Made by a program: the position numbers and the translations under genes. From NCBI GenBank assembly GCA_021234155.1, contig JAJEKV010000190.1:54044-118043 (forward strand): 64,000 bases of DNA, in the 5' to 3' direction. The notes under the pieces were generated by a model. It was not told the origin of the DNA and searched no databases. It worked only from the letters and a program-made list of their open reading frames with translations. Below, one piece after another: positions 20,906-58,709 of this stretch. Within the stretch, counting starts at the first letter, position 1. Each line of letters begins with the position of its first letter. Source of the stretch: Isoetes taiwanensis (Eukaryota; Streptophyta; Lycopodiopsida; Isoetales; Isoetaceae).

Positions 20906-20910
20906 GATGG
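20906..20910. repeat. Target-site duplication of element D (left copy, GATGG)
   Basis: GATGG immediately left of the D LTR matches GATGG at 32,968-32,972 immediately right of the other LTR. A 5-bp duplication is the norm for Ty3/gypsy integrase. Confidence 0.9.
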
Positions 20911-22506
20911 TGTGACGCTCCCTGCTAAACGTACGGCGCCCGGCCGCACACTCGGCAGGAAATCCCCCATCCGGCTCAACAACCGCATGGGCCCTTCGTC
21001 TACCCCGCACTCTGAGGTGACTCTTAGTGCGGAAGGGAACACGGTTGGTGTCTTGGCGCCGCCTTCCCCTATGGGCTCCTATAACAAATGAAGTTTATAT
21101 CAATGTAACTAGCATCAACATATACAAATACTACCTCGAAGGGTAGTGCATCACACATAAACCAAGGCAAAGATGATAATCACGAACCATAAAACATGAG
21201 AGCTCCTGCTAGGCCTCAAGATAGAGCAGACCGAGTCATGGCAATGGCGAGGGGTCGGCATAGAACAATGGCTAAAGTTGACCACTCCATCCATCCCCGT
21301 GCATACTTTGCAAAATGGGCTAGATCAGGCTCGACAGACTCTAGCCTTCCTGACACGCAATCCCATGGCATCACCCATCGGGACTACCCAGTTGCATCTC
21401 CCCGTCCGATGAGGCAGAAGGGTTGCATCTCCCTTCCCCAGATCTAGAGGTGCTGGGCGCTAGAGAATCGCGGGCGACACACGATTCGCACTGACCAACC
21501 CCCAAAACGAGAGCCAAGCCAACACTTGCAGCCTTCCGAGAGGCAGGGCAACACCATTGCCCCCAGAGGTGTTCCGGACCCATGCTCGCCCACACGGCGT
21601 GACCGACCATAAGCCTAGCCCACTATGGGATCCCCCGGCCCCCACTCTGGGCAGGGATCCTCCTCCACTTTCTCTCTAGCCCCAAGTATATGGTGCTGAG
21701 TCATATCATAGCCTCAATAGCCTGGGTGGGCTCCTATGCACAAAGCCGCAACTAATAGGAACTAAGGATCTACTCTAGAGCATACTACATATGGCTCTAG
21801 GTCTCTACCCCTTCCCAATACAAGAGGAGCAAACATGATCAACCATCATCACATAATCATCACATCATGAGAATAATCATAAGAAGAACATCTTAACCTA
21901 ATCATACAACTAACTAATGGTTAGGGTTCCTTGATTAGGGTTCAAGATGTTGAATATGGGTTCTAGGATGGCTCTACTCTAGATAATTAAGATACTAGCA
22001 CATCCGAATGCTAATTCCATGCATGAGCTATCACAACTACTATCCTACATACCGCCTCCTCAAGCTCTCCCTCCAGATCCGTGTGCCTCCATGGTCTCCG
22101 ACTCACGAGATGCCGCCCTACTCCAAGAACGAAGCCCACCCCGCCGGGCTGCCGCACCGCCTATGCCACAACAAACCATGTTCAAACGAGGTTTCAACGA
22201 AGTAGGTGAGTCTCCGGGTGCTAGGGCTGGAAAGAGGTCTAGGTTAGGGCTTTATGCCTATATAAGCTAGGGTCCACCCTAGGATGCCACGCGGCACCAA
22301 TCGGTGAGTCCCGCGGTGGCGGTGCCCCACAGGTTAAGGCCACGCGGATAATGGCTTAATCCTATGGTTGGCTAAGTTATGAGAATAACTTAGCCCATGC
22401 CCCTAGTGCCACAACCTATGGTATACAAGGCTATGAAGATAGATTTGTATAGTGATTTTATCCAGAATATAATGTATTTATGACGATATTCCCCTCGACC
22501 GCCACA
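20911..22506 (-). repeat. Element D 3' LTR
   Basis: On the minus strand it begins TGTGGCGG and ends CGTCACA, with the polypurine tract adjoining its start. A TATA box (CTTATATAGG, minus) lies at about 22,257-22,267, roughly 245 bp into the LTR. About 1.35 kb of the LTR would therefore be downstream of the promoter. The 3' half shares blocks such as TCTCTACCCCTTCCCAATAC with the element A LTRs, so the families are related. Confidence 0.93.
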
Positions 22507-22517
22507 TTCTCCCCTTA
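22507..22517 (-). other. Element D polypurine tract
   Basis: Minus-strand CTAAGGGGAGAA directly precedes the TGTGGCGG start of the 3' LTR. That is the place and composition of a plus-strand priming site. Confidence 0.8.
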
Positions 22518-23465
22518 GGACAATGCCGCCCCCAAAGATTGCGCTTAAGGTGACGATCCTACCTTATGCCCGCAAAACATCAACATGTCATAACCTTTAA
22601 TTTAGTTTAGCAATCAAGTTTTATTAGTTGTGCTGTCAAAATTTAGGCTATATTTGTACTTATACAAAATTATATAGCCTTAACAATCGCTATTTCTTAT
22701 AATAATTCAAAATACTATTGTAAGAGTTATTAGGGTTCATAATCTAAATTATGGCTCCCCCTATCTTCTCGTAATGCGCCTCCTCGCTGAAGTCCACCTT
22801 CTACTTGCCCGCAAAAGGAGCACATTACGCTAGTTTAGTTAATAATTTGTGGTTTTAGGGGACCACCCTCTTTACCTCCTTGAGCCGAACCATCGACTCA
22901 AGGTTGTCCTACTACCTTGCCCAAGATCATGGCCCTTTCGGATTTGAGCTTAAGGATCATTTAAGATGCTCCCATCATCGCCCATGATCGAGTGCTACCT
23001 TGTACTTCTGCTACCCCTAAGTGTCGAAAATTCCCCCTAGTGCATCATGCCCCACTGGTTTGAAGCTAGGAACGCCTCACGCATCCCATCATCACAAGAT
23101 GATCACTTTAACCTTCACCATGACCCTCCTACGCCAGTGTGTGGCGCATTCTCGCATCGTGGGCATAGAGATCATCCGATCGATGTCCCATCATCGCCCA
23201 CCATGCCTCATTCTCACTCACATGACCCTAATGGTCATATGCTATTCTTGGTGCGTGTGGCCTAGAGAATGCCCTAAAGGCGATCCCATCATCGCCCACA
23301 CGATCTGTTGTTCGCACATGCACCCTAGTAACTAGAATGCATGCGCCAAAGCTTAAGGCTAACTAACAACATACTAGCTAACCACCCGGCAAGTCGGGTC
23401 ACCAAGCCTGAGACCACTCGCCCATCAAACTCCTTTTTCATAAACTCGGGTATTGCTTCTCCAAG
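22518..23465 (-). other. Element D 3' untranslated region
   Basis: About 0.95 kb between the chromodomain end and the PPT. It is AT-rich at 22,560-22,760 and then carries repeated CATCATCGCCCA-type words at 22,970-23,310. I recognise no protein motif. Element A has a 3' region of similar length (46,396-47,300). Confidence 0.6.
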
Positions 23466-24950
23466 TCTTGCTTCAATACCCATGTCGCATCTTCCACGGG
23501 CAAGTGCTTCCACTTAACCAAATACCGAGGAACTGAGACCTCCTAGTCTTCTTTGAATGACTTATCAAGAAGCAATTCAGCACTATTTCTACTTGCTCCT
23601 CCGGCCATTTCCAACAAGGTTGGAGTATCCAAAACCTCCTCGTGGTTAGGATTGTGCCTTTTAATAAACTTACGTGGAAGACCTTGTGAACCTTGAGATG
23701 GGCCGAAGATCCAACTTGTAGGCTTGAGAGAGCCCACTTCTCCAAAAATCTTGAACGGACCAGCCCACCTAGGGGCAAGCTTCTGCAGCTCCCAACCGCA
23801 GCCTTGGCTTGCTTCACCTTTATCTTCAACCGTGACGCCATCGCCTACCTTGAATTCTCTTTACTTGCCCCAGGCTTGTCGGCTACACTCTTTCCGCCGA
23901 CTTCTTGCCGCCAATAAGTAACCCCTTACTTCTTCCACTAGCCGCCTGATATCCCCTAACATCCGGCCGGATACTTCTACCTTGGACACGTGGATTGTGC
24001 CGTATCCCGGGTTAAGCACCGGCACCCGTAATTTACTATGAAAGGAGACATCCGAGATGACTCCTCGCTATAATCGCTGTAGGCTAATTCTCGCTGGCAA
24101 TCGCTAGGCGCATTCCACCAAGTGGATGTACTCATCCCACTTGGACCGCTTGTTCCACACATAGCTTCAAGCATGTCTTCAATGATCCGATTCGCCCCCT
24201 CCGCCCCGCCATCTGCTTGGGGGATGATATGCCGGCTCATGGAGAGCTTCGCCCTAATGGTGCCGAAGAGGTCCCGCCGTAAGGCACTCATAAACTTGGA
24301 ATCCCTATCGATATTATCTCCCGAGGCATGCCATGGAGTCTGAAAATCTCCCTTACAAATAACTTGGCAAGATTCAATGCGTGTCAAGAGTCTTGCAAGG
24401 CACAAAATGTGCCATCTTAGATAACTTATCTACGACAACCATCAATGCATCCTTGCCTCAAGAGTTCTAGGATACCGTGATGAAATCCATGCTTATGACC
24501 TCCCACTTTGCATTTGGCACCCTAATGGCTCAAGAGCACTGAACTGGGTTGCTCGCTTTTGGTCTCACGACATAACCGGGTAATCCCGAATATATGCAGC
24601 TATTCCGCTTCTTCATTCCCCGCCGTTAGCTACTTCAATCTTGAAATAGGTCTTCATGAAGCCAAAGATGGTTCTCGCTATTGGGTCTGTTATGTGTGTC
24701 ATGAAGAATTAGCTTCCTTACCCCCGATGATTCTGCACACACAACTTATGCTTGGATACAACAAAGTTGCCTTCCTTCTTATAATGCTTGAAGGCTTCCC
24801 CGCCTTTATCCTGCTCTCGCTTCCTTTGGAAAGACTTTCCCATACCTCCTTGAAGTCCACATCCGCTGGCAAGGACTCCTCAATCTTCTTGCCAAACTCA
24901 CTGAAGAGTGGAAATCGTGATTACAATGCGCCCTTGTCTCAATTGGTCTC
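23466..24950 (-). pseudogene. Element D integrase with C-terminal chromodomain
   Basis: Minus-strand fragments in several frames give the order of a Ty3/gypsy integrase. REIFRLHGMPREIIS and EYIHLVE belong to the catalytic core (about 24,100-24,350). VEEVRGYLLAARSRRKE and LKVGDGV belong to the C-terminal domain (about 23,850-24,000). The end reads VPRYLVKWKHLPVEDATW (about 23,470-23,560), the aromatic/WKxLP signature of a chromodomain. Integrase inserts the cDNA; in chromoviruses the chromodomain biases insertion by reading modified histone H3. One in-frame TAG and several 1-2 bp shifts break the reading. Similar breaks occur throughout pol, so some may be consensus errors. Confidence 0.85.
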
Positions 24951-26330
24951 CCCGAGAGGGCATCCGCTACAACATTAAGCTTACCAGCTTATATATAATA
25001 TCAAAATCATACTCCTCAAGGAATTCCATCCACCTCCTTTGCCTTAAGTTGAGGAGTGGCCGGGTGAAAAGATAATCAAGGCTCGTGATCAAGATCCAAC
25101 CTCAAACTTCCTTCCCAAACAGATAATGCCTCCATATCCTCAATGCCCCGACAATGGCTAGCAGCCCCTCGATCATGGGTTGGGTATGCTGTTCGGCGCC
25201 GCTCATCTTCTTCGAAGTCGTAGGCTTACTTACCCTTCCTTCTTGCATCAAGACTGCCCTCTGCTATCTTGCTTGCATCCGTTGTTACCAACTTATCTTT
25301 ACTCTGATCCTAAGAACAAGCACCGTGTCAAGAGTTAAGGCCTCTTTAAGCTTCTCAAAAGAAGCTTGGACTTTCTAACCAATGGCTAGTCCAATCCTTA
25401 ATCTTCTTGGCCTTAGTGAGGTCCCACAGAGGGGACGCCCACTTAGCAAAGTCCTTCACGAACTTTCTCAGAATATCCCGCCAACCCGAAAGCTTTACTT
25501 CGCCACATTCCTTTGGGCTGGCCAATCAACTATTGCCTCAATCTTAGATGGATCTGCGGAGATTCCTGATGTTACTACATGCCCCAAATACTCCACTCTA
25601 CCCTGCAAAGTGGCACTTAGAGAGCTTCCCATACAACCGATGATGTCTCAACTTCTCCAACACTTTCCCCGAGATGCCGACAATGCTCCTCAAGGGACTT
25701 GTCAGAGATTAGATGTCGCCAAGAAGACAATAACAAACTCATCCAAGAAGTCTCTCAAGATGTCGCTCATGAGGCGATAAACGCTTTTCGGAGCATTCGA
25801 TAGTCCAAAGGGCATTATCAGAACTCAAAATGACCATACCGCTCGAAAGCAGCCTTTATGGATATCCTCTTTTTATTCTTATCCGATGGTATCCTGACCT
25901 CAAATCAATTTTAGAGAATACCTTTGCTCCTTGTAACCGGGTCCATTAGGTCATCCGCCTTTGGCAATGCATACTTGTTCTTTATCGCCTCGCTTATTAA
26001 GCCGGGCGATAGTCTATGCACATTCTTAAGCTCCCATCTTTCTTCTTCACAAAGAGTATAGGTGTCTCAAAGGAGACACACTTGCTCTTATAAATCCAAG
26101 CTCGAAAGCAATTCCCGCTGCTTTTGAGCTCAATCAATTTCGGGTGCTCATTCTATATGGCGCCATCGTAGGCTTCGCGATCCTGAGCCAATGTGATCTC
26201 ACATTCCACACCCCTATAAGGTGGCAAAATGCGGATTTCATCCGAAATACATCCTTGAACTCAAATAAGCCTTTGCTATCCGCTCAAGCAACTCATTCCC
26301 TTTTTGGGTCATTTCCTCCCGCTGCCTAGC
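24951..26330 (-). pseudogene. Element D reverse transcriptase and RNase H
   Basis: [18 protein letters not shown] at about 26,005-26,062 is the Ty3/gypsy RT finger motif. HTIKNKYALP, RISIKAAFERYGHFEF and VEYLGHVVTSGISADPSKIE (about 25,560-25,640) follow in family order. RNase H fragments include DKLVTTDASK, the first catalytic Asp, then IVGALRIWRHYLFGKEV, and [16 protein letters not shown] near 25,010-25,050. The FDDIL box near 25,730 is shifted out of frame. RT and RNase H make the cDNA in the cytoplasmic particle. Confidence 0.85.
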
Positions 26331-26960
26331 TCAACCGCTTCCATCCTCAAGATGTAGTCCACCTTATTCTTTTCTATACTCTTCCTTAGTCGCTTCAAAG
26401 AAGTACACCGCATGGGAGAATCTAGCTTCTTACCTTTCACTATCAATTTGCGCCATCCGTGCCGCCATGGTGACTTCATTCCTGGCCGCAATCAATCATG
26501 GCTTTGGTCGGGTTTCAAAAATTCCATCCCCACTATCGATCATATCTTCCATGTCCATGACTTCGCCCCCATCGGCCACTTAGCCCCACTAAGGTCTATG
26601 TCAAAGGTGATCCTCCTCCCCTTAGTGTGCCGAATGGCCAAGCTTGCCATAGCTACCGGCCTTGGCTTAGACTTCAATACCTTGTTCTTCATTAGAGCAA
26701 AACCAATCTAGGAGATGCAAAATTATGAGAGCTACCGATCTATGAGGACTACATAAGGATTACTATCTATGATCCCATCCGCATGACATGATGACCGATT
26801 CTCTATATCACCTGCCTCAATGTTTGTACATATGTGGCACTCACCATCTATGAAGTCCTCGCCCTCCCGCCGGGTCGCCGCCCCGCCCGCCTCGCTGGGG
26901 AGTCCTAATCCAAGAGTTCTCGCCAAGGCCGACCGCATGACCTAATGGACAATCATGTGT
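26331..26960 (-). pseudogene. Element D aspartic protease region
   Basis: YVVLIDR at about 26,735-26,760 stands where A has FIVLIDSGSSHNF. LKSKPRPVAMASLAIRHTKG and ITFDIDL (about 26,570-26,680) align with the A protease, and IVGMEFLKP matches its IIGMEYLGP. The active-site DSG is lost just after the Asp by a frame break. The family cleaves the Gag-Pol precursor. Confidence 0.75.
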
Positions 26961-28130
26961 TCGTGGCCCCGGGCCGGAAGCACCTCAAGCATAACTTTTT
27001 CTCAATGCATTCCCGCTCTCTTTTCCTTCGCAAAACTGCCTAGGAGACGCTTTAAGAGCACCAGCCTCGATGCATTCTCCCAGGGGCTTACTGGCCCCCA
27101 AAAGCTTTGTTCTCACCCTTTACCTTGCCGCTGACTCCCCCGATGGTGTAGCCGCCGATTGCTTACCCCTATATTGCCCCCGACATCAAGCAATAACTCT
27201 TACCCCGGCGGGTTGATCAAGTCCTCACTGGAGTTGCCGGTGCCTCTTCCAAACTTATAGCTTTATCTTCTACCGCGTAACCGACTTCGGGTTGATTGCT
27301 CTAACAAGCCTCTTGATATTGCTGCTCAATCCCTCAATGTAAGTATCCACGGCTTGCCTCTCGAGACTCCAGAACATGCACCGAGCCTCATAAATTCTTC
27401 TGATACTTAGCCACCGATAGCTACCCGATTCAACCTCAGAAAACCGCCGACCGCCTACTAGTATGAGACCTTGGCACATAGTGCTTATGAAAAGCCTTGT
27501 CAAGGTCTTAAACCGCGCATTGTTCCTCTTCAGCTTGTTGGATTTAGCATATCCCTTCCACCAGATCCTTTGCCGTCCAATAAGGTTAGTCAGTAGTAAC
27601 TTTCCCTATGTCCTTGTCTTTCATACCGTATGAGTTGCCAAATTCTTCCATTTCATCAAGCCATGCTTCAAACCTTCCATGCCTCGACTGCTTTCCCCAG
27701 AACCGCCGAGCCTTTGTCTTCCATACATTGCTCATAGCACTATCCACCTTTTTTCGATAGTCATCCGCTTTTCTTGCTCTTTTCCTGCTTTAGGTGTGCC
27801 CGGTCGACTCGCTTCTGAGCCGAGCCGCCCTCACCGGAAGAGCTTATCCGATGAGCCGGAGCTAGATGATGATGGACTCCCCGTTCTCCTCTTCCTTCTC
27901 CTATCCCCGACGCTCCCGGGTTTGTAGAGTGTGCTCAGATCTACCGGAACTCCTCCTCCGAGATGATAGGTTCCCTCGGCTGCCGATAGATCTCCCTTAT
28001 TCACCGATAGGTCGCTATGTCCTACATTGTCTCCCCAAAGATAAGAGTGTTCTCCGCCTTGGAATCTCCCCGGTATGAGTAGTCGATGAGGTCTGTGTTT
28101 TCCCTGCGGTGCTATCATGCCCAAGAGCTC
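26961..28130 (-). pseudogene. Element D gag
   Basis: The minus strand carries RRKRRTGSPSSSSSGSSDK (about 27,840-27,900), a Ser-rich basic stretch like that of A gag. Then come AWLDEMEEFGNSYGMKDKDI (about 27,625-27,680), IWWKGYAKSNKL (about 27,545), and AVDTYIEGLSSNIKRLVRAI with INPKS (27,290-27,350). This is the Gag capsid-like domain of Ty3/gypsy elements, which packages the RNA. Single-base shifts split it into three or four frames. The zinc knuckle is not cleanly readable. Confidence 0.8.
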
Positions 28131-28869
28131 GCCGATTCAAGACCCCGCTCCCGAGTAGGACAAGTTGAGGATGTCATTCGCGAAAATGTACTCCTCCCCG
28201 CCGATGACTATCTGCGACAAAGCCGTGATGCCGACCGGTGGGCTCCAGAGTCGTTCTCACGCCGCCGCCATGCCTCAACGCGATACCTCTGATTCTTGTT
28301 GCCTCCCCGCCTCCCCATTCTCGGCCCCGCCCCCCTAGTCGCCAGAGTCTTCATGGATCTCAGAGATGGTGCCCCCCGGACGCCGCGGCCATAGTATTCG
28401 TGAGGCGAGGACTCTATATTCGTGATTTGATCCCACCCCTACGCATCAAGTGGCTTAAGTCTAAGGGCTGAACAGAGGGTTCCCCCACTTTGTTGATTGA
28501 CTTATAGTGCATGAAGAGGGCAAGGGCTATCCGAAATGAAAAGGTACCTATGCCTATTATGTCCGCAGTCATGTAATCTGCATGGTCCTAGTCCTATCCC
28601 ATAGTCGCTTCTTGCCTTTGATCCCCGCCAACTCTCACCTAAGGCTTGGGTAAGTGTCTCAAGAGAAACCCACCCCTCCCCTAGGAGGCGCCTAACTTCC
28701 CAAGGCAGACTCGCCGGTCATATTGGCACATAATGTCCGTGGTAGTAGGGTGTTCTAGTCAAGGTTGCATGAAGATCAAACAAGTGATCAAACACGAGAA
28801 GGCTTGATCTACGTGAAGCCGATGGATATGGCTTGCAAAGATTGTACCATCTCTCGGTTGCCGGGCCAT
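28131..28869 (-). pseudogene. Element D second ORF, function unknown
   Basis: An ATG at 28,867-28,869 (MARQPRDGTIFASHIHRL) lies about 110 bp downstream of a clear TATA box, just as the second ORF of A does. The first frame stops after about 32 codons. Other minus-strand frames continue to the gag start, so frameshifts are likely. I recognise no domain. The stretch at 28,150-28,450 is rich in Gly, Arg and acidic residues in all frames. Conserved placement between the H3-like ORF and gag is the main reason to list it. Confidence 0.35.
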
Positions 28870-28970
28870 TGAGCGTGCAAGGGTGTAGAAAATGGCTTGC
28901 AAGGATCGCTGGAGGTTCGTAAAATCGCCTAAGGGGCCGGGAGCAGCTCAGAGAAGGAAAAATGGCAAAT

Positions 28971-28989
28971 GGGACCTATTTTTATAGAC
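28971..28989 (-). promoter_or_regulatory. Internal TATA box of element D (second ORF)
   Basis: Minus strand TCTATAAAAATAGGTCCC. It matches TTCTATAAATAGGTCCC at 39,872-39,888 in A in both sequence and distance to the next ATG (about 110 bp), which supports an internal promoter. Confidence 0.6.
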
Positions 28990-29149
28990 TATGGGTGACC
29001 CTCGGGTTCGCGGCAAAAGGTACCTACCTAAGACGCACCTTTGGTTCTATGGCTCGGTGTCTAAATGAACTACCATGAAGTGCAAACTTAAGCAAAACAA
29101 AGCAAGAAACACTACATGGCAATTTGTTGGATCAAATTTGGCTAATTTG

Positions 29150-29440
29150 GGCCAAGGATGGGCTGACCCGGTGAATCCGGGCATGATGGCCTCCGCCGCA
29201 GCATGGACGCAGACGCCGCTTTTGGCGCTGGCTCACACCCTGGCCTGCTTTTGGGCCAATTTTTGGTCATTTCGGGAATTTAAAGATGCTAATATGGCTA
29301 ATTGGGCTAATTCTAACCTAACTAGCAACTTATTTTGAGCAAAACCGACATCTAAAAGCATGATTTTGGGCCCAGGCCGGGAAATCCGCAAACGCCACCG
29401 GCCGGGGACGCAGAGGCCTTAGGCGCATGGCCTCACTTGG
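29150..29440 (-). repeat. Element D paired GC-rich motifs downstream of the H3-like ORF
   Basis: In element orientation, CTCTGCGTCCCCGGCC...CCCGGCC lies at about 29,372-29,425 and GTCTGCGTCCATGC...CCGGATTCACCGG at about 29,160-29,215. They are about 205 bp apart, the same spacing as the two motifs after the H3-like ORF of A and C. The A versions form hairpins; these keep the GC arms, but the AT palindrome has been replaced. Confidence 0.55.
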
Positions 29441-29648
29441 TTGGCCCTGGATTTCAAAGATTTTGATGATTTTTTGCCAAAATTTTGTTGTAGTCATGAT
29501 TTCTAGGGTGTTTCTAGACATGCTATGAAGAATTCCTACCACAATTGGGTTCTATTTCCTATATTTCAAGCATACAACATTTTTCTAATTTACGAGGGAA
29601 AGTAACTTTATATTAATAAGAAACACAATTACATGGGAGTTTCTTTTT

Positions 29649-30753
29649 CTAACAAAATTTACAAAATTTGAGGCCTAAGGCCTCTCTCTCTCTAATCCTC
29701 CTTGCTAAGTGAATATCCTTAGGCATAAGGGTAACTCTCTTAGCATGGATAGCGCATAGAGGTTCCTTCCTCAAGAGCCGACCAGCTCGCCGAAGCCTCT
29801 TGCAGGCCCGGTCATTAGAGGGGTAACCCTATAATCGGTCCGAATCGCTGCAACACACTCTCTAAGAAGACGCCGAAGGGCGCTTTCCTTATCGAGATTC
29901 GCACATCCGAAGTGCCGGACTCCCTAAACACCCGGGATGTGCTGTTCGCCCGTGGTGAACCCTCTTGGGTTTTTCCGCCTAGGTGGGGTGGCTTGGGCTG
30001 GTTCTTCTTCGCCTCGCCACCTTCCCACGACGCTTGCACCTCCCCGGGCGGCAATACTTTTATTGTACCTCGGCCCAACGACGGAAGGTACTTCCTTGTA
30101 TGCCACCATCTTCCGCTTTTAAACTCGCTGGGTCCCATTGAGAGCGAATGCCCGCCCCTACCTTTTTGCTTCTTCACCACCTTAGGTGGTTCCCGCCACT
30201 TGGGGTAGGGTGGCCTAGCGCCGAGGTCCTGCTGCCCCTCCTCCTCCTCTTCCTCCACTTGTGGCTCCTCCTCCGTTCGGGTTTTGAATAATTCCATCTG
30301 GCCCGGGCGCAGGCCCGGGCTGCCTTCTCTTTGTAATGCTTTTCTTGCTCCTCAGCCCCTTCCCGCCTCCCGCTTTCTTTCGGCCGCGTCTCTCCTCCTG
30401 CCACTCCGCACTTTTTCCTTCCCCTTTCTTTTGGGCACCGAGGGGCCCGCTTTTCTGGCCCGTGGTGGTGCTGCCCTCCACCGCTTCTTCAACTCGCTCT
30501 CCACCTCGTGTCCGAGGGCCCCGGGCGGCGCTGACTCGGCCCGCTCTTTGTGTTCCCGCCGCGAGGGGCTGCCATCGGGCTGCTCTCGCATCGTGAAAGC
30601 TCGGTCCGCCGGGCCGCCGCTGAGGGCAATTCGCTTCCGTGCTTCTCGGGCCGGCAGGTGCTCGAACTTTCTTCACGCGGTTTAATTCACCGCTACCAAG
30701 GCCATAGAGGGTGGGGCCCACCAAACTTCCTAGCTGTTTGTTTGGTGCGCCAT
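29649..30753 (-). CDS. Histone H3-like protein encoded by element D (broken as read)
   Basis: The ATG at 30,753 reads ATGGCGC, then after an apparent 2-bp loss ACC AAA CAA ACA GCT AGG AAG, giving [10 protein letters not shown]. That is the H3 tail with the Lys4 and Lys9 positions kept. A long Pro/Arg/Gly/Glu-rich segment of about 230 codons follows (30,000-30,700), much longer than in normal H3. The histone fold is at the C-terminus: ISIRKAPF (alpha-N/alpha-1, about 29,880), LQEASA (alpha-2, about 29,790-29,810), then an uninterrupted frame at 29,652-29,756 starting [20 protein letters not shown] and ending at TAG 29,649-29,651. Canonical H3 (about 136 residues) has [20 protein letters not shown] here. 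A TTTAAATA box lies about 85 bp upstream. The ORF sits between PBS and gag. Several frameshifts remain. H3 similarity is certain; the role in transposition is unknown. Confidence 0.85.
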
Positions 30754-31315
30754 ATCTTGTGGTTCGTGAAATGGGTGACGAAGGTCGAGCAAGAGAGAGG
30801 TGAAGGTGAAGGGTTGAGAGAGAGAATGAGGTGTCGATATTTAAAAAAGGAGGGTCCCCGGAATATTCTCCTACCATAATTACCCCTATTTATTAGCCCC
30901 CTACTAATTACACCATATTTAGCAATTATTTAACTATTAATGTATATGTTAAATCTATATTAATTGATATTATACTTAAATTTTCGAATTTTTCTAATGG
31001 TTCAAGTGCAATTTATGAATTTGCTTCATTTTTCACCGGGTCTCCTCGATTGGCATGATTCTTCGACCCATTTTAGGTGAAATTTGATGCAGATGCATAA
31101 TTTTCACTCCAAATTTACTAGAAGATGAGTTTGACTCACTCAACTTTCGTCTAACACTTAACCTAAGTCCCCACTCCACTACCTAGGAGAAAAATTTTTC
31201 CCCATTTTCGCTCGATGGTGGAAATGTTTATTTCACACCCCTATAGGCCTGTTAGACTACTTCATGGTTATGGTCGCTAGTTCTTGGTCAACCAAGAACA
31301 TCGCCTCGATACCAT
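30754..31315 (-). other. Element D leader with primer-binding site and promoter-like box
   Basis: ATGGTATCGAGGCGATG begins about 1 nt after the LTR end (minus strand, 31,299-31,315). It matches the usual initiator-Met tRNA PBS (TGGTATCAGAGC) apart from small changes. The leader contains GGGGAAAAATTTTTCTC, also found in the A leader. A minus-strand TTTAAATATCGAC near 30,835-30,848 could be the TATA box of the H3-like ORF. Confidence 0.7.
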
Positions 31316-32967
31316 TGTGACGCCCTCGCTAAACGACGGGCCCTCGACACTTCGGGCAGAAATCCCCCATCCCGCCCAACAACCGCATGGGCCCTTCGCC
31401 TACCCCCGCACTCGAGGTGACTCTTAGTGGGAAGGGAACACGAAGGTGTCTTGGCGCCTTCCCCTATGGGCTCCTATAACAAATGGGCTTATATCACGCC
31501 GTAACTAGCATCAACATATACAAATACTACCTCAAGGGTAGTGCATCACACATAAACCAAAGCAAAGATGATAATCACGAACCATAAAACATGAGAGCTC
31601 CTACCCCGCTGCACTGTAAGGAGGATGACCGAACGCCAGGGCCTCAAGATAGAGCGCAATCGAAGTCATGGCAATGGCGAGGGTCTGGCATAGAACAATG
31701 GCTAGGGTTGACCACTCCATCCGCCTCCCCCCAGGCATACTTTTGCAAATGGGCTAGATCAGCTCGACAGACTCTAGCCTTCCTGATACGCAATCCCATG
31801 GCATCACCCATCGGACTACCTCCAGTTGCATCTCCCCGTCCGATGAGGCAGAAGGGTTGCATCTCCCTTCCCGTGATCTAGAGGTGCCGGGTGGCTAGAG
31901 AATCGTGGGCGACACACCCATCTGCACTGACCGAAACCCCCAAAACGAGAGCCAAGCCAACACTTGCAGCCCTCGAGAGGCGTGGCAACACCATTGCCCC
32001 CCCGTGAGGTGTTTCGGACCCATGCTCGCCCACACGGCGACCCCACCATAAGCCTAGCCCACTATGGGATCCCCCCAAGCCCCCCACTCCCGGCAGGGAT
32101 CCTCCCTCCACTTTCCCTCTAGCCCTCAAGTATATGGTGCCGAGTCATATCATAGCCTCAATAGCCCGGTGGGCTCCTATGCACAAAGCCGCTAACTAAT
32201 AGGAACTAAGGGATCTACTCTAGGAGCATACTACATATGGCTCTAGGTCTCTACCCCCTTCCCAATACAAGAGGAGCAAACATGATCAACCATCATCACA
32301 TAATCATCACATCATGAGAATAATCATAAGAAGAACATCTTAACCTAATCATACAACTAACTAATGGTTAGGGTTCCTTGATTAGGGTTCAAGATGTTGA
32401 ATATGGGTTCTAGGATGGCTCTACTCTAGATACAAGATACTAGCACATCCGAATGCTAATTCCTGCATGAGCTATCACAACTACTATCCTACATACCGCC
32501 CCCCTCAAGCTCTCCCTCCGTGCATCCGCAGGCCTCCATGGTCTCCCACTCACGAGATGCCGCCCTACCCAAGAACGAAGCCCACCCTCAAAGGGCTGCC
32601 GCACCAGCCATGCCACAAGAACGCCATGTTCAAACCCAGGTTTCAACGGTAGGTGAGTCTCCGGGTGCTAGGGCTGGAAAGAGGTCTAGGTTAGGTTTAT
32701 GCCTATATAAGTTAGGGTCCACCTAGGGATGCCACGCGGGCACCAATCGGTGAGTCCCGTGGTGGCGCGTCCCCCAACAGGTTAAGGCCACGTGGATAAT
32801 GGCTTAACCCTATGGTTGGCTAAGTTATGAGAATAACTTAGCCCATGCCCCCTAGTGCCACAACCTACTGGTATGGTATACAAGGCTATGAAGATAGATT
32901 TCTTGTATAGTGATTTCCATCCAGAATATAATGTATTTATGACGATATTCCCCGACCGACCGCCACA
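31316..32967 (-). repeat. Element D 5' LTR
   Basis: It is 1,652 bp, from TGTGGCGG (minus, 32,967) to CGTCACA (31,316). The minus-strand TATA box AACTTATATAGG lies at 32,702-32,713. Compared with the 3' LTR, AT-rich runs such as 32,277-32,440 are identical over more than 150 bp, while GC-rich parts show many 1-6 bp indels. GATGG follows at 32,968-32,972. Confidence 0.93.
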
Positions 32968-32972
32968 GATGG
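32968..32972. repeat. Target-site duplication of element D (right copy, GATGG)
   Basis: Identical to 20,906-20,910. LINE2 coding sequence resumes directly after it. Confidence 0.9.
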
Positions 32973-33905
32973 GACCCGCCCAACGCCCACAAAGTCAGTA
33001 TATTTTTGCCACCCTACAAGAACTCCCCGATGCTAAGGAGAATGTGTCTAATAATAGCTTAGCATTAGAAGATTCCCAGCCCTCGCAATTAGGAACAAAA
33101 AGTATCACTCCCGATATTGGTTACATACCTCTTGAGAACCATCATTCCATTGGGAGGCCTTGAATAATGCCATCTTGGGTAGCCACAGAAAGAGCCGATA
33201 ATACTTCTGCCACACCAGAAAAAAGCAAGGGTGCTAAGGGACAACCTTGCCGGAATTCCTCTACCCACTACAAAAATATCCGGCGGCTCACCTCGAAAAG
33301 GCAAGATCCGGGTGATGTATGGAGCTTCATGACATTCCTTGTGAATGACTCTCCAAACCCAAGTGCAAGAAGACACTTCCAAGAAACCCCAATCAACACT
33401 ATCGTAAGCTTTAGCAAAATCAAGCTTAAGATACACCGCCTATGACCCCGCAAATCGGCCCAATATATTCCTCCATATGCAGCAGCCCACGCTTGTTGAG
33501 AATACAACGACGAGGGAGAAAGCCGATTGTGTTGATGAGATAGCGCCGCCAAGATATCTCTGGACTCTTTTCTCGCCAATGTCTTAGCAAAGATCTTGTA
33601 CACAGAGGGAAAGCAATGTAATAGGTCGCCAAATAAATAGTCTTGGGTTCCTTGCTCTTTGAATGAGAGAGATACAACCTCAGATTCAAAATCTTATCAA
33701 GGCTCCTAAATCTCCTAAAACTCACAAAAGGCATCATATATGTCATCCTCCAACCAAATTCCAAAGACTTCAAAGAATTCAATAGGAAAACCATCAAGAC
33801 CCGGACATTTGTCCCTTTTCAAGAGAGCCACAACCGCTTTTAAGTCCTCCTTCATGATATTAGACTCAAGAAGCAACCTCCGCTTCTTCGTAAAACAATG
33901 CGACG
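32973..33905 (-). pseudogene. LINE2, middle part: reverse transcriptase N-terminal half
   Basis: On the minus strand the reading goes from KEDLKAVVALLKRDKCPGLD followed by GFPIEFF (about 33,770-33,860) through RRCILNKRGLLH to MYLKLDFAKAYDSVDWGFLE (33,375-33,436, first catalytic Asp) and RGIPARLSL. These are the fingers and palm of a plant LINE RT. The C-terminal half continues at 20,905 on the far side of element D. The upstream end stops abruptly at the junction with a gypsy fragment near 33,905. About 1 kb that should link the endonuclease to the RT is missing. Confidence 0.88.
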
Positions 33906-35755
33906 GGTTATGGATACAAAGAAAGCTCTTCACCAAAGAGATCTTCAGCTTCATGGCATGCCAAGGGAGATTATCTCCCACAGTGGATCCTAAGTTTATG
34001 AGTGCCTTCCGCAAGACCTCTTTAATAATTATTCGTGATAAAGCTATCCATGAGCATCGCATATCATCCTCGCATCGATGGCCAAACAGAGCTTTACCAA
34101 CAGATTTTGGAGGACATGCTACTAACTATGTCCGAATAAGCAAGGTATGTGGAAGAATTTATCCACTTGGTGGAGTTTGCATACAATAGCACCAAGCAGA
34201 ATCATCCCAAATGTCGCCAAGTATGATTAATTACGCTATCGCTGTTTAACCCCGCATTAATTTGGCACAACCCCGTCAAAAGTGGAAGTTTCAAGCAGCC
34301 AGATGTTACCGATATGCAGCAGCTCGTGGAAGAAGTTAGAGGATATTTGCTAGCAGCAAGAAGTCGCATTTAAGAGCATCGCCGCATAAGCATCGAATGT
34401 ATGAGAGTTCAAAGTTGGAGATGATGTTTGGCTCAAGATCAAGGTGAAGCGCGCTCAAGATTGGGAATTGCAAGAAGCTTGCTCCAAGGTGGGCTGGACC
34501 TTCGTAATAGTCAAGAGAGTAGGTAATCAATCCTACAAGCTAGACTTGCCAAAGACACCTAAAGATTCATAAGGTCTTCCACGTGAGTTTGTTGAAGAAG
34601 CACACTTCAAATCCGCACGGTCTTGGACACTCCAACGCTTGTTGGAAATGACAAAGAGCAAATGGAAATAGTTCCGCACTGATTCTTGATAAAGCTTTCA
34701 AGAAAACAAGGAGGTCGGAGTTCCTCCAATATTTGGTTAAGGGAACACTTACCGGTGGAAGACGCCGACGTGGGTACTTAAGAAAGATCTAGTAAAGCAA
34801 GTACTCGCAGCTTTATGGAGCAATGGGACGGCAAAGTCATCTCCTCAAGAAATCGCTCGTGCATGTCGATTTGTGTAGATTAGTTCTTGTATACTTAAGA
34901 TTAATTCTACGATGCAACCTATGCTAGGTATGGGTCGCATGCGCCGCTATCGATGATGGGACCACTACGGTGATCTCTAGGGCGCAGTGTAATGTCAATG
35001 TAGGCATGACCGCTGCTTTTCGGCTAAAGTGGAAGGTAGATTAGAAAGTCTACTGTCCCACTTAAGTAGACGCACCTCGAGAAAGGAGGTCATTAAGGAA
35101 TGCACCGATAGGGAACACACCTCTAGCCCCATATATGCTTTGATAGGAGGAATCAGCCTTCACGCCCTTTATATGGGAAGGACCTATCCTCCACGCCGGG
35201 CAACTAGGGTGTAGGCATGAGCGCATATAGGCATATAGGCCGCCTCCACGGCCATAATGGAAGATTCACCCTCTTCCTACGAGATTAGCCATGCATCCAT
35301 GTAGATAGGTGGGTGGTCACCATATAACCAAAATTTTATTAATAATTAAAATGGTACTAACATAGTGTCGACCGGCAGCAGCCAATAGAGCCCCGAGGGG
35401 CAAGGAGATCGAAGAGGAAAGACTTGCAACACAAATTTTGTTGGAATGTGTTGCAAGGAATGAAGAGTACCTAACAATAATTGTAGTTATGAAATGATAA
35501 ATTCTCGATAAACTTAATTGTCGCGGATAAGTAAAACTATCGAAGTAACTTACTTAAAGATGTTATGAATTGATAAGTTATTTCATAATATAATGGCGCC
35601 ATAATGTTCTAAAAATATTACCTTAAGGTAATCTTAATAAATGTGTAAATATCATAGTAGTATATCGTATGTATCAGGGTGATTGCAGGTTAGGATGATC
35701 CCAAGGTGGGGAGACCCACGATGCTGCGGACAACATCATTTCAAGGTGGAGAGAA
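33906..35755 (+). mobile_element. Truncated gypsy unit (integrase end and 3' region) joined to element A
   Basis: From about 33,906 the sequence is a copy of 45,486-47,310: integrase core end (YVEEFIHLVEFAYNST), EFKVGDDVWLKIKVK, QYLVKWKHL, then the same 3' region and a PPT (GGTGGAGAGAA). It runs straight into the LTR at 35,756. The LTR therefore serves both as 3' LTR of this broken unit and as 5' LTR of element A. Everything upstream of the integrase core is missing. Differences from the other copy are mostly small indels. Such LTR-sharing tandems arise by unequal recombination, here followed by a deletion that also removed part of LINE2. Confidence 0.88.
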
Positions 35756-37392
35756 TGTGACGCTTCCAGACGCGATACGGTCCCGTGACGATAATCGCAT
35801 CGCCACACGCCGCATTACGCACCCCGACCGACGGTAATGTACCGACGCAGCCAAGGGGTAGCCCCTAGGGGCAACTTGCTAAGAATGTGCATTAGTATTA
35901 ATGTGCACATTTACCAATGTACACATTAATGTGGGCACACATTTCCATGTGGACACTTCATGCCAAGTGGGCCATACCCAAGTGTGCAATTAATGTGCAC
36001 ATTTACCAATGTAATGTGGGCACACATTTCCATGTGGGCACATTTTGCCACCTAGCCATTAAAGGCAGTATCCATTCCCACTATCCCACATGCCTAAAGG
36101 GGATAATTGGAAACCCTAGCCAACCCCATGTCTATTTAAGGAGGGAAACCCTAACTTACCCATTTTTCGCTTTCTAGGGTTTAGAGCTCGCTTTGGCTGC
36201 CTCAAGAGCTAAAACCACCTCCCACTCTCCCGAGAAATTGCACCGCTAGTTTCCCCGATTCGAAAGTGTTTCAAAGAGGGATGGTCAACTCCAGTCGAGG
36301 AGCCACTAAGGATCAGTATTTGGTTAATTAAATAGTCTAAACCTTATTTCACCATAGAATCAGAGGTTTAGCCTATTAAATTGCCCATAGCAGCCTTCTA
36401 GATCTCGAGATACTAGCCTCTAACTAAAGAACCTAACTCTATGATATAGATTAGATATAGTTCTTCGCTTCTTCCGGGATATATATGGATGATGTATCTC
36501 TATGAACTCCTTGTATTGGGAAGGGGGTAGAGACCCTCAAGCTTGGTAGTAGATGCTCCTAGATTAGCCTCTCTAGCACACTATAGATTCGCCCCGGTGG
36601 GCAAGAACCACACCTGGGTTGGGGTGAAGGGGCCGACCGCTAAGAAGGAGGTTCATGTTCCGACTTTGAACCATCCCTCTCCGTGTGTAAGGCCTACCAG
36701 GGATCATAGTGACTAGGTCTAATGGCCTACCACCGAAAGTGTGGGTAGGGCATGGACTCGACACCGAAGTGGTGTACACTTTCCGCTGGTTCACCAGATA
36801 CCCGCAAAGGGGTCTCTAGTCACCTTGAGCCGCATGCATCTCTCGAGGGATCGATCCCTTCCTGCCCCATCGGAACTGGGAGGATGAGACCCAGGAATAG
36901 CCCCTTTGGCTATGCATTCGGCGGGCTACAGTCAGGTCCCGACACTTTTCAGCCTTACTCGCAAAGTGTGCACAAGAGGGGCGGATGGAGGGACAACCCT
37001 ATGCCATGTTCATATGCCGCCTAAATCCATTGCCATGAATTCTCGTCAAGAATGAACTCGAGACCCAAGCCAGCCACCATCCCTCGAAGTCCGAAGTCTT
37101 GGGTAGGACTCCCCATATGTATTGTGCTCACCTTGTTTATGCAGATGTGATGGACCACCCTTTGAGGTGGTTATGTGCTTATGTTATATACTGACATGTA
37201 TGTTTACGCTTCCGCAGCTAGGTAGGCCCCCGAGGGAGCGGGTAAAATGACCCCTTCACTCTTCCCACCGAACCCGGCCATGGTTGCAAAGTGTCATGTG
37301 GAGGGCCCCGGTGACGGGCATGGAGCCGGTATGGGGATGAACTCGGTTGTATACCTCGGAGTGCACCGTGATATGCAGTAGGGGACGCCACA
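35756..37392 (+). repeat. Element A 5' LTR (shared)
   Basis: 1,637 bp from TGTGACG to GACGCCACA. U3 has two tandem blocks built from TGTGCACATTTACCAATGTA and GGGCACACATTTCCATGTGG (about 35,895-35,960 and 35,990-36,045). TCTATTTAAGG at about 36,128-36,138 is the likely TATA box, leaving roughly 1.25 kb of transcribed LTR. Compared with the 3' LTR, long AT-rich runs are identical and indels cluster in GC-rich words. Confidence 0.92.
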
Positions 37393-38050: not shown

Positions 38051-39298
38051 ATGGCCCGCGACAAAGCGCACCGCCGTAAAGCCTCACGACGCGATCCTAG
38101 CCAAAGGACCCCGGCCTGATTCAGAGGATATTGCAAGAACGCCTTTTCTGGCAAGGCGAATCTTCTTCCAGCGAGGAGGAGGAATCGGACCGGAGCGACC
38201 AAACGGAGGTCATAGAGGAGGAGCGGCCAGACATTATATGGAGCAAATTCTCGAGGAGATCGCAGAGGAGGAGAGGAGAAGCAGGGAGCAACGGGAACAG
38301 ATAGGGCAGCCGACAGTCGAGGAGCAACTCGAGGCTTGGGCCCGTCTGCAGGAGGAGGAGGAGAGAGGGAGGCAGCGGCAGCCGCGGCTTAGCCCTGCCG
38401 AAGAAGCAGACCTCGCGGCCTTCATCAGTAAGTATGAAGACAAGGAGCCACGAGCAGAGGACTAAGAACCGAAGACGCACTCCAACCACAAATGGCGGGT
38501 CAAGAAGAGGAAGGCCAAGAGCATCAAGGCGGGCGCGTAAGAGTCGTTATTGGTAAGCCAGCTGGTCCCGTGATCAATGAACCATCAGGCGAGCAAACCC
38601 CACCTTCTACCGACGACTCGGACGAAGATTACGTCCCCAACACTGAGGGGGCAAGTTCCTCGAAACCCCCAATCGCAGAGAAGGAGGTACCGGAGCCGGT
38701 GGTACCTGATGAGCAGCAGCCTGGACAGCCGCAGAAGCCCCCACCTTTCCCGACGTGGGATAGGGTTAAAGCCCCGCGGCCACAACGGAGGTATACGCGG
38801 ATAGACCCGGCCAAGGTCTATCAAGAAGATTAAGGAGCACAATGCCTATATGGCTGGCGGGGAGGCATACAATGCTTATTACCGCTAAAGACAGTGGTAA
38901 CGGACAATTGAAGGCGGACACCCGACGAGGAGTCAGACCCTGAAACCGCCACCACCAAAGCCCAAGCCTCCCAGAGCACCAGGGAAGAAGCGGACCAAGA
39001 GCAAGCAGAAGGAGCAGAGGGCCCTCAAGGAAATCCGGCACTTCCGCAGAAGTTACGGACTCTTGATCCCTGCACCGCTTTCAACGCTTTGGTCCGAGAA
39101 GTCATGCAGAGTACAACACCTTACACGCGGGTGACCGATGAGATGTTGCCGTGGTTCACAGGAAGCGCAGAGGCTAAAATAGTGCAGATTTTGAAGATTC
39201 AACGCCCGCACCGCGGCACGCCAAGAGGGTCACGCCATGAGGCAGATATATTTTTAGCCGCATTACACATCAAGGAGAACGCCTTTGAACTTTTGTAA
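38051..39298 (+). CDS. Histone H3/CENH3-like protein encoded by element A (broken as read)
   Basis: The ATG at 38,051 opens MARDKAHRRKAS, resembling the H3/CENH3 start (MARTK...). A long acidic and Pro-rich segment follows: RRSREQREQIGQPTVEEQLE near 38,300, DDSDEDYVPNTEG near 38,620, and a basic run GKKRTKSKQKEQ near 38,985. The C-terminal histone fold reads ALKEIRHF (39,021-39,044, alpha-N), LLIPA (about 39,060-39,074), LVREV (39,089-39,103, alpha-1), SAEAKIVQIL (alpha-2), and HEADIFLAALHIKENAFELL to TAA 39,296-39,298 (alpha-3). Plant CENH3 typically has ALREIRHFQ and LLIPA where canonical H3 has REIRKYQ and LLIRK, so A is nearer CENH3. At least three frameshifts are needed. The protein would be about 415 residues, three times normal H3. 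An alternative frame across 38,925-39,090 is also open, but gives no H3 match. Confidence 0.82.
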
Positions 39299-45049: not shown

Positions 45050-46395
45050 CTAGAAATGTATAAGGAGCAGAAGCCTTTAAACATTATAAGAAGGAAGGCA
45101 ACCTGTTATACCATAAGAACAAGTTGCGACTCAATCATCGTGTAAGGAAATTGATCCTTCATGACATGCACAACAGCCCAATAGCCGCCATGCGATTCAT
45201 GAAAACATACTTCAAAGTGCGCGCAGCAGCCTATTATTGGCCAGAATGAAGAAGCAAGTAGCTCGCTACATCGAGAATGTCAGCCTATGTCGCCAGACGG
45301 CGGCGCAGCTTCAACCTGTGAGCATTAGAGCCATTAGCGTGCCAAACGCTTAAGTGGGAGGTGATCAGCATGGATTTCATCACTGTGGCTTCCAAGAACA
45401 AGAAGGGGAAAGGATGCCTTGATGGTAGTGGTCCATAAGTTGTCGAAAATGGCACATTTTGTGCCTTGCGTAACCACAGATATGGCTATGGATACAAAGA
45501 AAGCTCTTCACCAAAGAGATCTTCAGTGCCATGGCATGCCAAGGGAGATTATCTCCGGCAGTGATCCGGTTTATGAGTGCCTTCCGGCAAGACCTCTTTA
45601 TAATTATTCAAATAAAGCTATCCATGAGCACGCATATCATCCTCGACGGATGGCCAAACGGAGCGGACCAACAGATTTTGAGGACATGCTACTTTAACTA
45701 TGTCCGAATAAGCAAGGTATGTGGAAGAATTTATCCACTTGGTGGAGTTTGCATACAATAGCACCAAGGTGAATCATCCCAAATGTCGCCGCTTATGATT
45801 AATTACGGCTATCGCTGTTTAACCCCGCATTACTTGGCACAACCCCGTGGTCAAAAGTGGAAGTTTTGGCAGCCAGATGTTGGGCGATATGCGCCAGTGG
45901 GAAGAAGTTAGAGGATATTTGCTAGCAGCAATAAGTCGATTTAAGAGCATCACACAAGCAATCGAACAGTGAGAGTTCAAAGTTGGAGATGATGTTTGGC
46001 TCAAGATCAAGGTGAAGCAGCAAAGCTCAAGATTGGGAATTGCAAGAAGCTTGCTCCAAGGTGGGCCGGACCTTCGTAATAGTCAAGAGAGTAGGTAATC
46101 AATCCTACAAGCTAGACTTGCCAAAGACACCTAAAGATTCATAAGGTCTTCCACGTGAGTTTGTTGAAGAAGCACACTTCAAATCCGCATTTAAGTCTTG
46201 GACACTCCAACGCTGTTGGAAATGACAGAAGAGCACCGAAATAGTTCCGCAATTGATTCTTGATAAAGCTTTCAAGAAAACAAGGAGGTCGGAGTTCCTC
46301 CAATATTTGGTTAAGTGGAAACACTTACCTGGGAAGACGCGACGCGGGTACTTAAGAAAGATCTAGTAAAGCAAGACTCCGCAGTTTATGGAGCA
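45050..46395 (+). pseudogene. Element A integrase with C-terminal chromodomain
   Basis: HDMHNSP...FMKTYFKVRAAAYYWP and the following Cys pair (45,160-45,300) form the HHCC zinc finger. KWEVISMDFITVASKNKKGK (45,352-45,411) holds the first catalytic Asp. HGMPREIISGSDP (about 45,517-45,556) holds the second, although the Asp lies in SGSDP where SDRDP is usual. TDGQTERTN-like sequence and YVEEFIHLVEFAYNSTKVNH (45,723-45,780) cover the third acidic residue. EFKVGDDVWLKIKV (45,970-46,015) is the C-terminal domain. The terminal QYLVKWKHLP (46,300-46,330), then TWEDATRVLKKDL in shifted frame, is the chromodomain. The integrase inserts cDNA; the chromodomain probably guides it to modified H3. Confidence 0.88.
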
Positions 46396-47300
46396 ATGGG
46401 ACGCAAAGTCATCTCCGGGCGAAATCGGCTCAGTACGTCGATTTGTGTAGATTAGTTCTTGTATAGTTAAGATTAATCACGCATGCAACCCATGCTAGGT
46501 ATGGGTCGCATGCGCCGTTATCGGCGATGGGACCACTACGGTGATCTCTAGGGCGGGTGTAATGTCAATGTAGGCATGACCGCTGCCGCTTGGGCGAAAG
46601 TGGAAGGTAGATCCAAAGTCTACTAAGTAGACGACTTCGAGAGAAAGGGAGGTCATTAAGGAATGCACCGATAGGAAAAACACCTCTAGCCCCATATATG
46701 CTTTGATAGGAGGAATCAGCCTTCACGCCCATATACGGAAGGACCTATCCTCCACGCCGGCAACTAGGGTGTAGGCATGAGCGCATATAGGCATATAGGC
46801 GCCATCTCCACGGCCATAATGGAAGATTCACCCTTCCTACGGAGATTAGCCATGCATCCATGTAGATAGGTGGGGTGGTCACCATATAACCAAAATTTTA
46901 TTAATAATTAAAATGGTACTAACATAGTGTCGACTGCCAATAGAGCCCCGAGGGCAAGGAGATCGAAGATGAAGACTTGCAACACAAATTTTGTTGGAAT
47001 GTGTTGCAAGGAATGAAGAGTACCCCTCAACAATAATTGTAGTTATGAAATGATAAATTCTTGATAAACTTAATTGTTGTGATAAGTAAAACTATCGAAA
47101 GTAACTTACTTAAAGATGTTATGAATTGATAAGTTATTTTATAATATAATGGCGGCCATAATGTTCTAAAAAAAATATTACCTTAAGGTAATCTTAATAA
47201 ATGTGTAAATATCATAGTAGTATATCGTATGTATCGTGGTGATTGTAGGTTAGATGATCCCAAGGTGGAGACCCACGACCTGGACAAAGATCATTTCAGT
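46396..47300 (+). other. Element A 3' untranslated region
   Basis: About 0.9 kb without coding signal. It is AT-rich after 46,870, with TATATCGTATGTATC near 47,220. It is duplicated at 34,800-35,745 in the truncated unit. Confidence 0.7.
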
Positions 47301-47310
47301 TGGGGGAGAA
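47301..47310 (+). other. Element A polypurine tract
   Basis: TGGGGGAGAA directly before the TGTGACG start of the 3' LTR. The equivalent in the truncated unit is GGTGGAGAGAA. Confidence 0.8.
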
Positions 47311-48954
47311 TGTGACGCCTCCAGACGATAGATACCGTCCCGTGATCGATAATCGCATCGCCTCACACACGCACACGCCACCGACCGACGCTGTAGCCAA
47401 GTGGGTAGCCCCTAGGGGCAACTTGCTAAGAATGTGCATTAGTATTAATGTGCACATTTTACCAATGTACACATTAATGTGGGCACACATTTCCATGTGG
47501 ACACTTCATGCCAAGTGGGCCATACCTATGTGCAATTAATGTGCACATTTACCAATGTAATGTGGGCACACATTTCCATGTGGGCACATTTTGCCACCTA
47601 GCCATTAAAGGCAAGGGCCCCATTCCAACATCCCACATGCCTAAAGGGATACTCTTGGAAACTCCTAGCCAACCCATGTCTATTTGGCTGAGGAAACCCT
47701 AACTTACCCATTTTTCAAGCTTCTAGGGTTTTTAGAGCTCTGCTTTGGCTGTCAAGAGCCAAAACCACTTCCTGCATTCTCGGCCCCAGAGAGAATTGCA
47801 CTGGCTAGTTTCCCCCTGATCTGAGTGTTTCAGCGTGATGGCTCTAACCTGTGTCGAGGAGCCACTAAGGATCAGGTATTTGTCAATTAAATAGTCTAAA
47901 CCTTTATTTCAAATATAGAACAAAGAGGTTTAGCCTATTAAGCTGCCTGTATATGTTCTAGATCTCTAGATACCTCTAACTAAAGAACCTAACTCTATGG
48001 ATATAGATTAGATATAGTTCATTTTTCCGTGATATATGGATGATGGGATCTCATGAACTCCTTGTATTGGGAAGTGTAGAGACCAAGCTTGGTAGTAGAT
48101 GCTCCTAGATTAGCCTCTAGCACACACTCATAGATCTGGCCTGGGTATGCCAAGAACCACACTCAAGTCAGGGTGAAGGCCACCAAGAAGGAGGTTCATG
48201 TTCCTCGACTTCTGAACGCATCCTCCGGGTGTGTGCAAGGCCTACCAGGATCATATAGTGACTATAATCTAATGGCCTATCACCGAAAGTGTGGGTAGGG
48301 CATGGACTCGACACCCGTGAAGTGGTGCTACCTTCCAAAGGGTTCAGCTCATACGGGCAAAGGGTCTCAGTCACCTTTGGAGTCAGTAATAGTGATCTCC
48401 TGGAGGGAGCGATCCCTTCCTTATTCTACCTGAACTGGGAGGATGAGACCTGTGAATAGCCCCTTTGGCTTAATCGGGCGGGCCAAGGCCAAAGTCCCCG
48501 ACATCTCTTTCAAACTTACTCCGCAAAGTGTGCAGCCGAGGGGCGACGGGAGGGACAACTCCTTATGCCATGTTCATATGCCGCCTAACCATTTCCATGA
48601 ATTTCGTCATAATGAACTGAGACCTGCCGGCTACCATCCCCTCGAAGTCCGAAAGTCTTGGGTAGGACTCTATATGTATTGTGCTCAATTCTGTTTATGT
48701 AGATGATGGACCACCTTGAGGTGGATATGTGCTTATGTTTATGCATAATCGACATGTATGTTTACGCTTTCCGCGTAGCCAGGTAGGCCCCCGAGGGAGA
48801 TCAGGTAAATGACTCTTCACTCTTCCCACTGAACTCCGCCATGGTTGGGTAAAGGTTTCATGTGGAGGGTCTCAGACGGGCATGTGGAGCCGGGTATGGG
48901 AGGAACTCCGGTTGTACTCTGCGAGTGCACCGTGATACAGTAGGGGATGCCACA
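47311..48954 (+). repeat. Element A 3' LTR
   Basis: 1,644 bp from TGTGACGCC to GGATGCCACA. U3 direct repeats lie at about 47,435-47,590. Blocks align end to end with the LTR at 35,756. Differences are mainly small deletions or insertions; for example, the CTATTTAAGG box reads CTATTTGGCTGAGG here. Confidence 0.92.
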
Positions 48955-55910: not shown

Positions 55911-55920
55911 CCGAATTTTC

Positions 55921-58704: not shown

Positions 58705-58709
58705 TAACG

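Follow-up and report, generated by a model that had tools for sequence, protein, structure and literature searches.

A histone H3 reading frame carried by chromodomain-bearing Ty3/gypsy retrotransposons of Isoetes taiwanensis

Ty3/gypsy retrotransposons in the genome of Isoetes taiwanensis carry, between the primer binding site (PBS) and gag, a gene that ends in a complete histone H3 fold. This gene recurs in several families, stays open over its whole length in some of them, and its H3 codons are under purifying selection across these intact families. Its product is probably an H3 variant of the element's own, pairing with host H4, entering chromatin and marking it for the element.

The window, i.e., the whole stretch of 64,000 nucleotides that was analysed, holds a Ty3/gypsy element named D. 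The initial annotation had assigned to this element a pair of LTRs, a PBS, a polypurine tract and a GATGG target duplication, all of which were confirmed, and had placed within it an H3 open reading frame (ORF). The features of element D are the following.

20911-32967, minus strand: element D, a Ty3/gypsy element with LTRs, PBS, polypurine tract and target duplication
20911-22506, minus strand: 3' LTR of element D, with ends TGT...ACA
31316-32967, minus strand: 5' LTR of element D, paired with 20911-22506
20906-20910, no strand: left target duplication GATGG, flanking element D
32968-32972, no strand: right target duplication GATGG, flanking element D
22507-22516, minus strand: polypurine tract AAGGGGAGA, adjoining the 3' LTR
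31303-31314, minus strand: PBS TGGTATCGAGGC, starting at 31314
23465-26100, minus strand: decayed pol (RT-RNaseH-integrase), with 67% DNA identity to the pol of L016, a related element elsewhere in the genome
27273-27834, minus strand: decayed gag region, with a blastn match to the gag of intact elements at 27473-27663
29649-30753, minus strand: H3-derived region (broken), with a TKQTARK N-terminus, a long insert and a C-terminal H3 fold
29679-29759, minus strand: end of the H3 fold (L2-alpha3), 27 aa, 81% identical to plant H3

The two LTRs are 88.6% identical across 1679 columns. The pol of L016, used as reference for that of element D, includes RNaseH, integrase and Chromo domains in a raw ORF, and the gag region of element D reaches only 0.089 with the Pfam Ty3_capsid profile. 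The H3 segment stands in sense orientation in the PBS-gag interval, that is, inside the mobile unit, as had been proposed. Its H3 start and its alpha-3 end were both recovered, whereas the single ORF described between them was not, as frameshifts and stops interrupt the region. The start codon ATGGCGC, read from 30753 on the minus strand, is followed by an indel and then by the H3-tail peptide, and the raw ORF 29652-29828 matches the Pfam Histone profile at 5.6e-9. Because of these frameshifts and stops, the window copy of element D cannot make the protein.

The whole window was scanned for H3 by frameshift-tolerant alignment, with 45 Markov-shuffled 64-kb strands as null and H4 and H2A as controls; on the real window, neither control exceeds 51. 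H3 had been reported for element D only, but two further elements or fragments, E2 and E3, also carry pieces of it.

38051-39298, plus strand: second H3-derived region (broken), in element E2, from MARDKAH... through the H3 core
35756-37392, plus strand: 5' LTR of element E2, with a degenerate PBS behind it
47311-48954, plus strand: 3' LTR of element E2, pairing with the 5' LTR
2837-3088, minus strand: third H3-derived fragment, E3, reading MARTKARP... and continuing into L2-alpha3, its middle shortened

In E2, a single raw frame gives 0.021 with the Pfam Histone profile, which is under the cut-off, and neither a raw E2 frame of 128 aa nor a raw E3 frame gives any match; read across frames, the E2 core matches a solved H3 at 7.5e-7. 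The broken frames of the window could be taken as a sign that the H3 pieces are chance similarities or an assembly artefact. This is barely conceivable, as the scores of element D (173), E2 (plus strand, ending at 39282; 125) and E3 (minus strand, ending at 2843; 77) stand against a maximum of 55 on the shuffled strands, a raw frame of a sister copy matches a solved H3 far more strongly and intact copies exist elsewhere.

An 86% repeat (33906-37392 and 45484-48954) holds the E2 LTR plus the 3' end of pol, and this repeated unit resembles tandem elements with a common LTR. Beside E2, at 33089-33818 on the minus strand, lie frames with what we take to be the motif of a non-LTR reverse transcriptase (DFAKAYDSVDWGFL). 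A further repeat family is present at 54770-62415 as direct repeats (73-80%).

The D and E2 families recur in the assembly. The H3 region of element D matches 42 other rows, three of them short second pieces, which leaves at least 39 other places among the 40 candidates scored of 923; that of E2 matches 41 other rows, at no fewer than 39 other places (40 candidates scored of 1714). The H3-tail peptide opens nine of 11 sister copies of element D, and in none of the 11 does a single frame span the region from the start through the end of the core. One of these sisters, L073, has a raw 336-codon frame that holds the complete H3 core and matches a solved H3 at 7.9e-32 and the Pfam Histone profile at 2.9e-28. 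Over the core of 12 D-family copies, the ratio of third over first-second codon positions is 1.2 (95%, 0.82-1.76) and gives no clear signal, as expected if the copies drifted after insertion. With a ratio so near to equality, this result speaks against selection inside the D family, and the selection demonstrated is that in its sister families.

These sister families were reached by a Histone profile search of the assembly, in which 150 loci were scored of 8705 loose candidates, all above the cut-off. Fifteen loci match profile positions 2-122, and reading of seven loci showed the canonical type; in the remaining 135, the match starts at profile positions 4-25 and open frames extend to at most 494 codons. 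Twenty loci were taken from the 135 by Histone score and long frames, and in all 20, so selected, an uninterrupted frame of 435-494 codons, ORF1, ends in a complete H3 fold. The four ORF1s tested match Pfam Histone at 3.3e-42, 9.4e-42, 1.2e-41 and 2.9e-41. Both a Histone domain, found in the element D ORF, in L073 and in these four proteins, and the presence of the H3 block in other copies of the D and related families bear out the initial annotation.

Gag or pol frames follow ORF1 in most of the 20 loci. The raw ORF of L017 encodes a gypsy gag, a protease and an RT, and that of L016 an RNaseH followed by an integrase and a chromodomain (Chromo 1.3e-6, in the one pol end scanned), frames by which these elements are Ty3/gypsy elements and chromoviruses. 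By eye, the W of the aromatic cage (Y24, W45, Y48) is kept in the L016 chromodomain and the other two residues are seemingly absent, a pattern presumably that of type II chromodomains. The sequence TGGTATC, with which the PBS starts, is found upstream in 17 of the 20 loci, and this PBS is, as we assume, of the tRNA-Met type. L016 is bounded by LTRs 90.0% identical over 1786 columns (48 mismatches) with CAATC duplicated, and L022 by LTRs 96.5% identical over 1647 columns (36 mismatches) with GTGGC duplicated; the 3' LTR of L017 was not found in the stretch fetched.

Copies were also sampled through other parts of the element. Among 20 of 150 matches to the N-terminal domain of ORF1, chosen by hand along the list, frame lengths being visible, the H3 core lies where expected in 15, one copy retains the full ORF and five have no recognisable H3. 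Starting from gag (20 of 150 matches, again hand-picked), the H3 core stands at the expected distance in 11 copies, and the other nine may lack H3 or have a different spacing.

From its N-terminal domain, ORF1 continues through a linker and a basic remnant of the tail into the H3 core, an arrangement that we read as the tail of H3 interrupted by an insertion. The core (residues 40-135) is 82-88.5% identical to L001, a host H3, and the segment before it is basic, as three proteins show, with 14-19 K+R per 60 residues each. The canonical tail, defined by ARTK and ARKS together, is not preserved, as ARTK stands at the start of one of the 20 proteins (L021) and ARKS occurs in one (L014). With residues 1-235 of L017 as query, which represent the N-terminal domain, one word-based search of 5.8 billion proteins returned no relative at E<=1. 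D, E2 and E3 contain no recognisable counterpart of this intact-family domain either (best tblastn E 0.25), so that the insert differs between families or has diverged past detection. The predicted structure of the histone part is of low confidence. Seven of the 20 cores combine H87 with L90, a pair that we take to be a feature of plant H3.3; as a lead only, it hints at replication-independent deposition. The proposal that the element supplies its own, greatly lengthened H3 variant is supported, in the related families, by the intact ORF1s, by their fold and by the selection acting on them.

Behind ORF1, 11 of the 20 loci have a second ORF without known identity, recognisable by its start motif. 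At L019:5335-6720, L024:3283-4689 and their relatives, it lies between the H3 ORF and gag and measures about 440-470 aa where unbroken. It is approximately 44% identical between types, and no Pfam match was obtained with the three pieces tested. The gag-pol DNA of L017 is 70-87% identical to that of L009, L011, L014, L021, L023, L024 and L026, the first six of which have other ORF1 types than L017. Of the 5' part of L017, only short LTR stretches align with these seven, together with the H3 core in four (72-75%); the H3 cores of L024, L011 and L023 give no DNA alignment with that of L017. From these comparisons, the 5' gene set and gag-pol have separate histories, and similar gag-pol combined with strongly diverged ORF1, ORF2 and LTRs suggests module swapping among L009-L028.

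Selection on ORF1 was estimated by Nei-Gojobori dN/dS, given as medians over pairs with dS of 0.02-1.5. The median is 0.037 for the core (76 of 190 pairs usable, 105 saturated), 0.113 for the N-terminal domain (43 usable and 132 saturated of 190) and 0.195 for the linker (60 usable and 115 saturated of 190). As the 20 loci had been chosen through the histone, the estimate was repeated on copies found through the N-terminal domain: of 14 high-scoring cores in that sample, the five unbroken were kept and nine dropped, and they again give 0.037 (6 of 10 pairs usable), although both sets favour conserved copies, having been chosen by Histone score and frame length or by unbrokenness. The H3 codons are thus under strong purifying selection across the intact families, which, together with the recurrence of the block, excludes a one-off capture of a host gene. 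A captured host gene merely copied along without function would agree with the dead window and D-family copies and with the lack of selection within D, but the intact ORFs and the core dN/dS between intact families contradict such a passive passenger, and it is very improbable.

Compared with host H3 L001, the ORF1 cores are saturated at synonymous sites in all 20 cases, with dN of 0.095-0.161. Since host H3 genes differ among themselves by dS from 0.6 to saturation, this indicates that the capture is not recent and gives no age. The same saturation bears on a general proposal for captured genes, present in the accessible part of PMC13317346, in which an essential host sequence acts as a shield that deters small-RNA silencing because siRNAs would also strike host H3. 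Such a shield requires nucleotide similarity and, with synonymous sites saturated and selection acting on amino acids, is highly unlikely here.

A chromodomain-bearing Ty3/gypsy clade would therefore, in the history that we favour, have captured H3 from its host at a time that is not recent and retained it in sense as ORF1, the first gene behind the PBS. A large stretch would have been inserted in the histone tail, MARTK surviving at the start in some families, and in the intact families the H3 start would now lead into a new domain of about 200 residues, a charged linker, the basic tail remnant and the complete H3 fold. We infer that ORF1 is expressed, presumably by translation from the genomic RNA as the first gene after the PBS. 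Its intact fold would most likely pair with host H4 and bring the protein into nucleosomes, where the enlarged and altered tail would label chromatin for the element.

Residues of the core argue for this assembly. Over the 20 ORF1s, the positions taken as DNA contacts agree with host H3 in 331 of 380 cells, and those taken as H3-H3'/ASF1 positions do so in 309 of 340. Conservation of the two sets together points to real nucleosome assembly, which we consider likely, rather than to a decoy. As a decoy, soluble ORF1 would bind host H4 or H3-H4 chaperones and, while staying outside nucleosomes, starve the silencing or replication-coupled chromatin pathway; the conserved positions facing H3', H4 partners and ASF1 agree with this, and the long N-terminal part might stand in the way of assembly, but a decoy does not need the DNA-contact residues that are also kept, and this role is unlikely. 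Somewhat less probable still is a packaging protein that condenses the element RNA or cDNA in the particle or just after nuclear entry, suggested by the place of ORF1 upstream of gag and by the basic segment before the core, as a generic condenser has no need of the near-invariant residues by which H3 specifically forms its dimer and four-helix bundle.

If the variant does enter nucleosomes, its tail may serve to resist the silencing of new cDNA or copies, a purpose that we rate a little below an even chance, or, more doubtfully, to keep the integration machinery bound to chromatin. The altered tail speaks for a state of the chromatin beyond full writing by host marks. Tentatively, an element-specific H3 variant on new copies or targets could thus create a private state, readable by the chromodomain integrase or other ORFs and not fully writable by silencing marks.

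An H3 fold with an altered tail is also characteristic of CENH3 (CENP-A), and the motifs EIRHF and VTLM of Arabidopsis CENH3 are found among the window copies taken together. ORF1 was rejected as a CENH3, because its loop 1 aligns without gap to host H3, and so is not lengthened, in all 20 intact proteins. In the tree, CENH3 stands apart on a long branch, and the retro-H3 group has a support of only 48/0. Separately, the records P0056, P0080, P0113, P0073, P0108 and P0001, named CSE4/CENH3, are canonical H3 in tandem repeat, and these names look wrong; P0024 and P0035 are canonical H3 in tandem repeat too.

With the chromoviruses of plants and lycophytes, these elements share the gag-PR-RT and RNaseH-integrase-chromodomain frames and the PBS, whereas the extra ORF with a complete H3 before gag, often accompanied by a second ORF, sets them apart; the portions available of the surveys PMC6317226 and PMC3350952 do not describe an extra H3 ORF. 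Orchid Ty3/gypsy elements likewise have a host-derived domain fixed as an extra ORF in a Gypsy lineage, but there it is an AlkB m6A demethylase domain and not a histone, and section 12 of that report, which screened 121 angiosperm genomes, names no histone (PMC9289625, excerpt). Single core histones of host type are known from other genetic parasites, namely bracovirus H4, whose tail is extended and which is incorporated into the nucleosomes of the host, and the H3 of other viruses, but their carriers are DNA viruses; in the main text of this review, as far as available, the word 'retrotransposon' is absent (PMC9145170). The available parts of a review of extra ORFs (PMC7264820) and of one on gene capture (PMC13317346) contain no retrotransposon-encoded H3, and 'Histone' is absent from the main text, in the portions available, of the genome papers of Isoetes taiwanensis (PMC8566536) and Isoetes sinensis (PMC10541799). 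Nor does a retrotransposon-encoded H3 appear in the titles or abstract starts among the matches listed in full-text literature, a source that leaves most subscription papers and preprints outside its reach. The statement of the initial annotation that no standard description is known of H3 as a resident ORF of such elements thus agrees with the literature searched.

Few host genes are as closely guarded as those of the core histones, and the silencing of retrotransposons works through H3 marks. If the reading given here is true, these would be the first retroelements known, in the literature searched, to carry the substrate of their own silencing. For plant type II chromodomains, whose partner, according to the survey PMC6317226, has not been identified, the element-encoded H3 would be a candidate partner. 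An element with its own selected H3 would offer a direct handle on how such elements escape or exploit chromatin.
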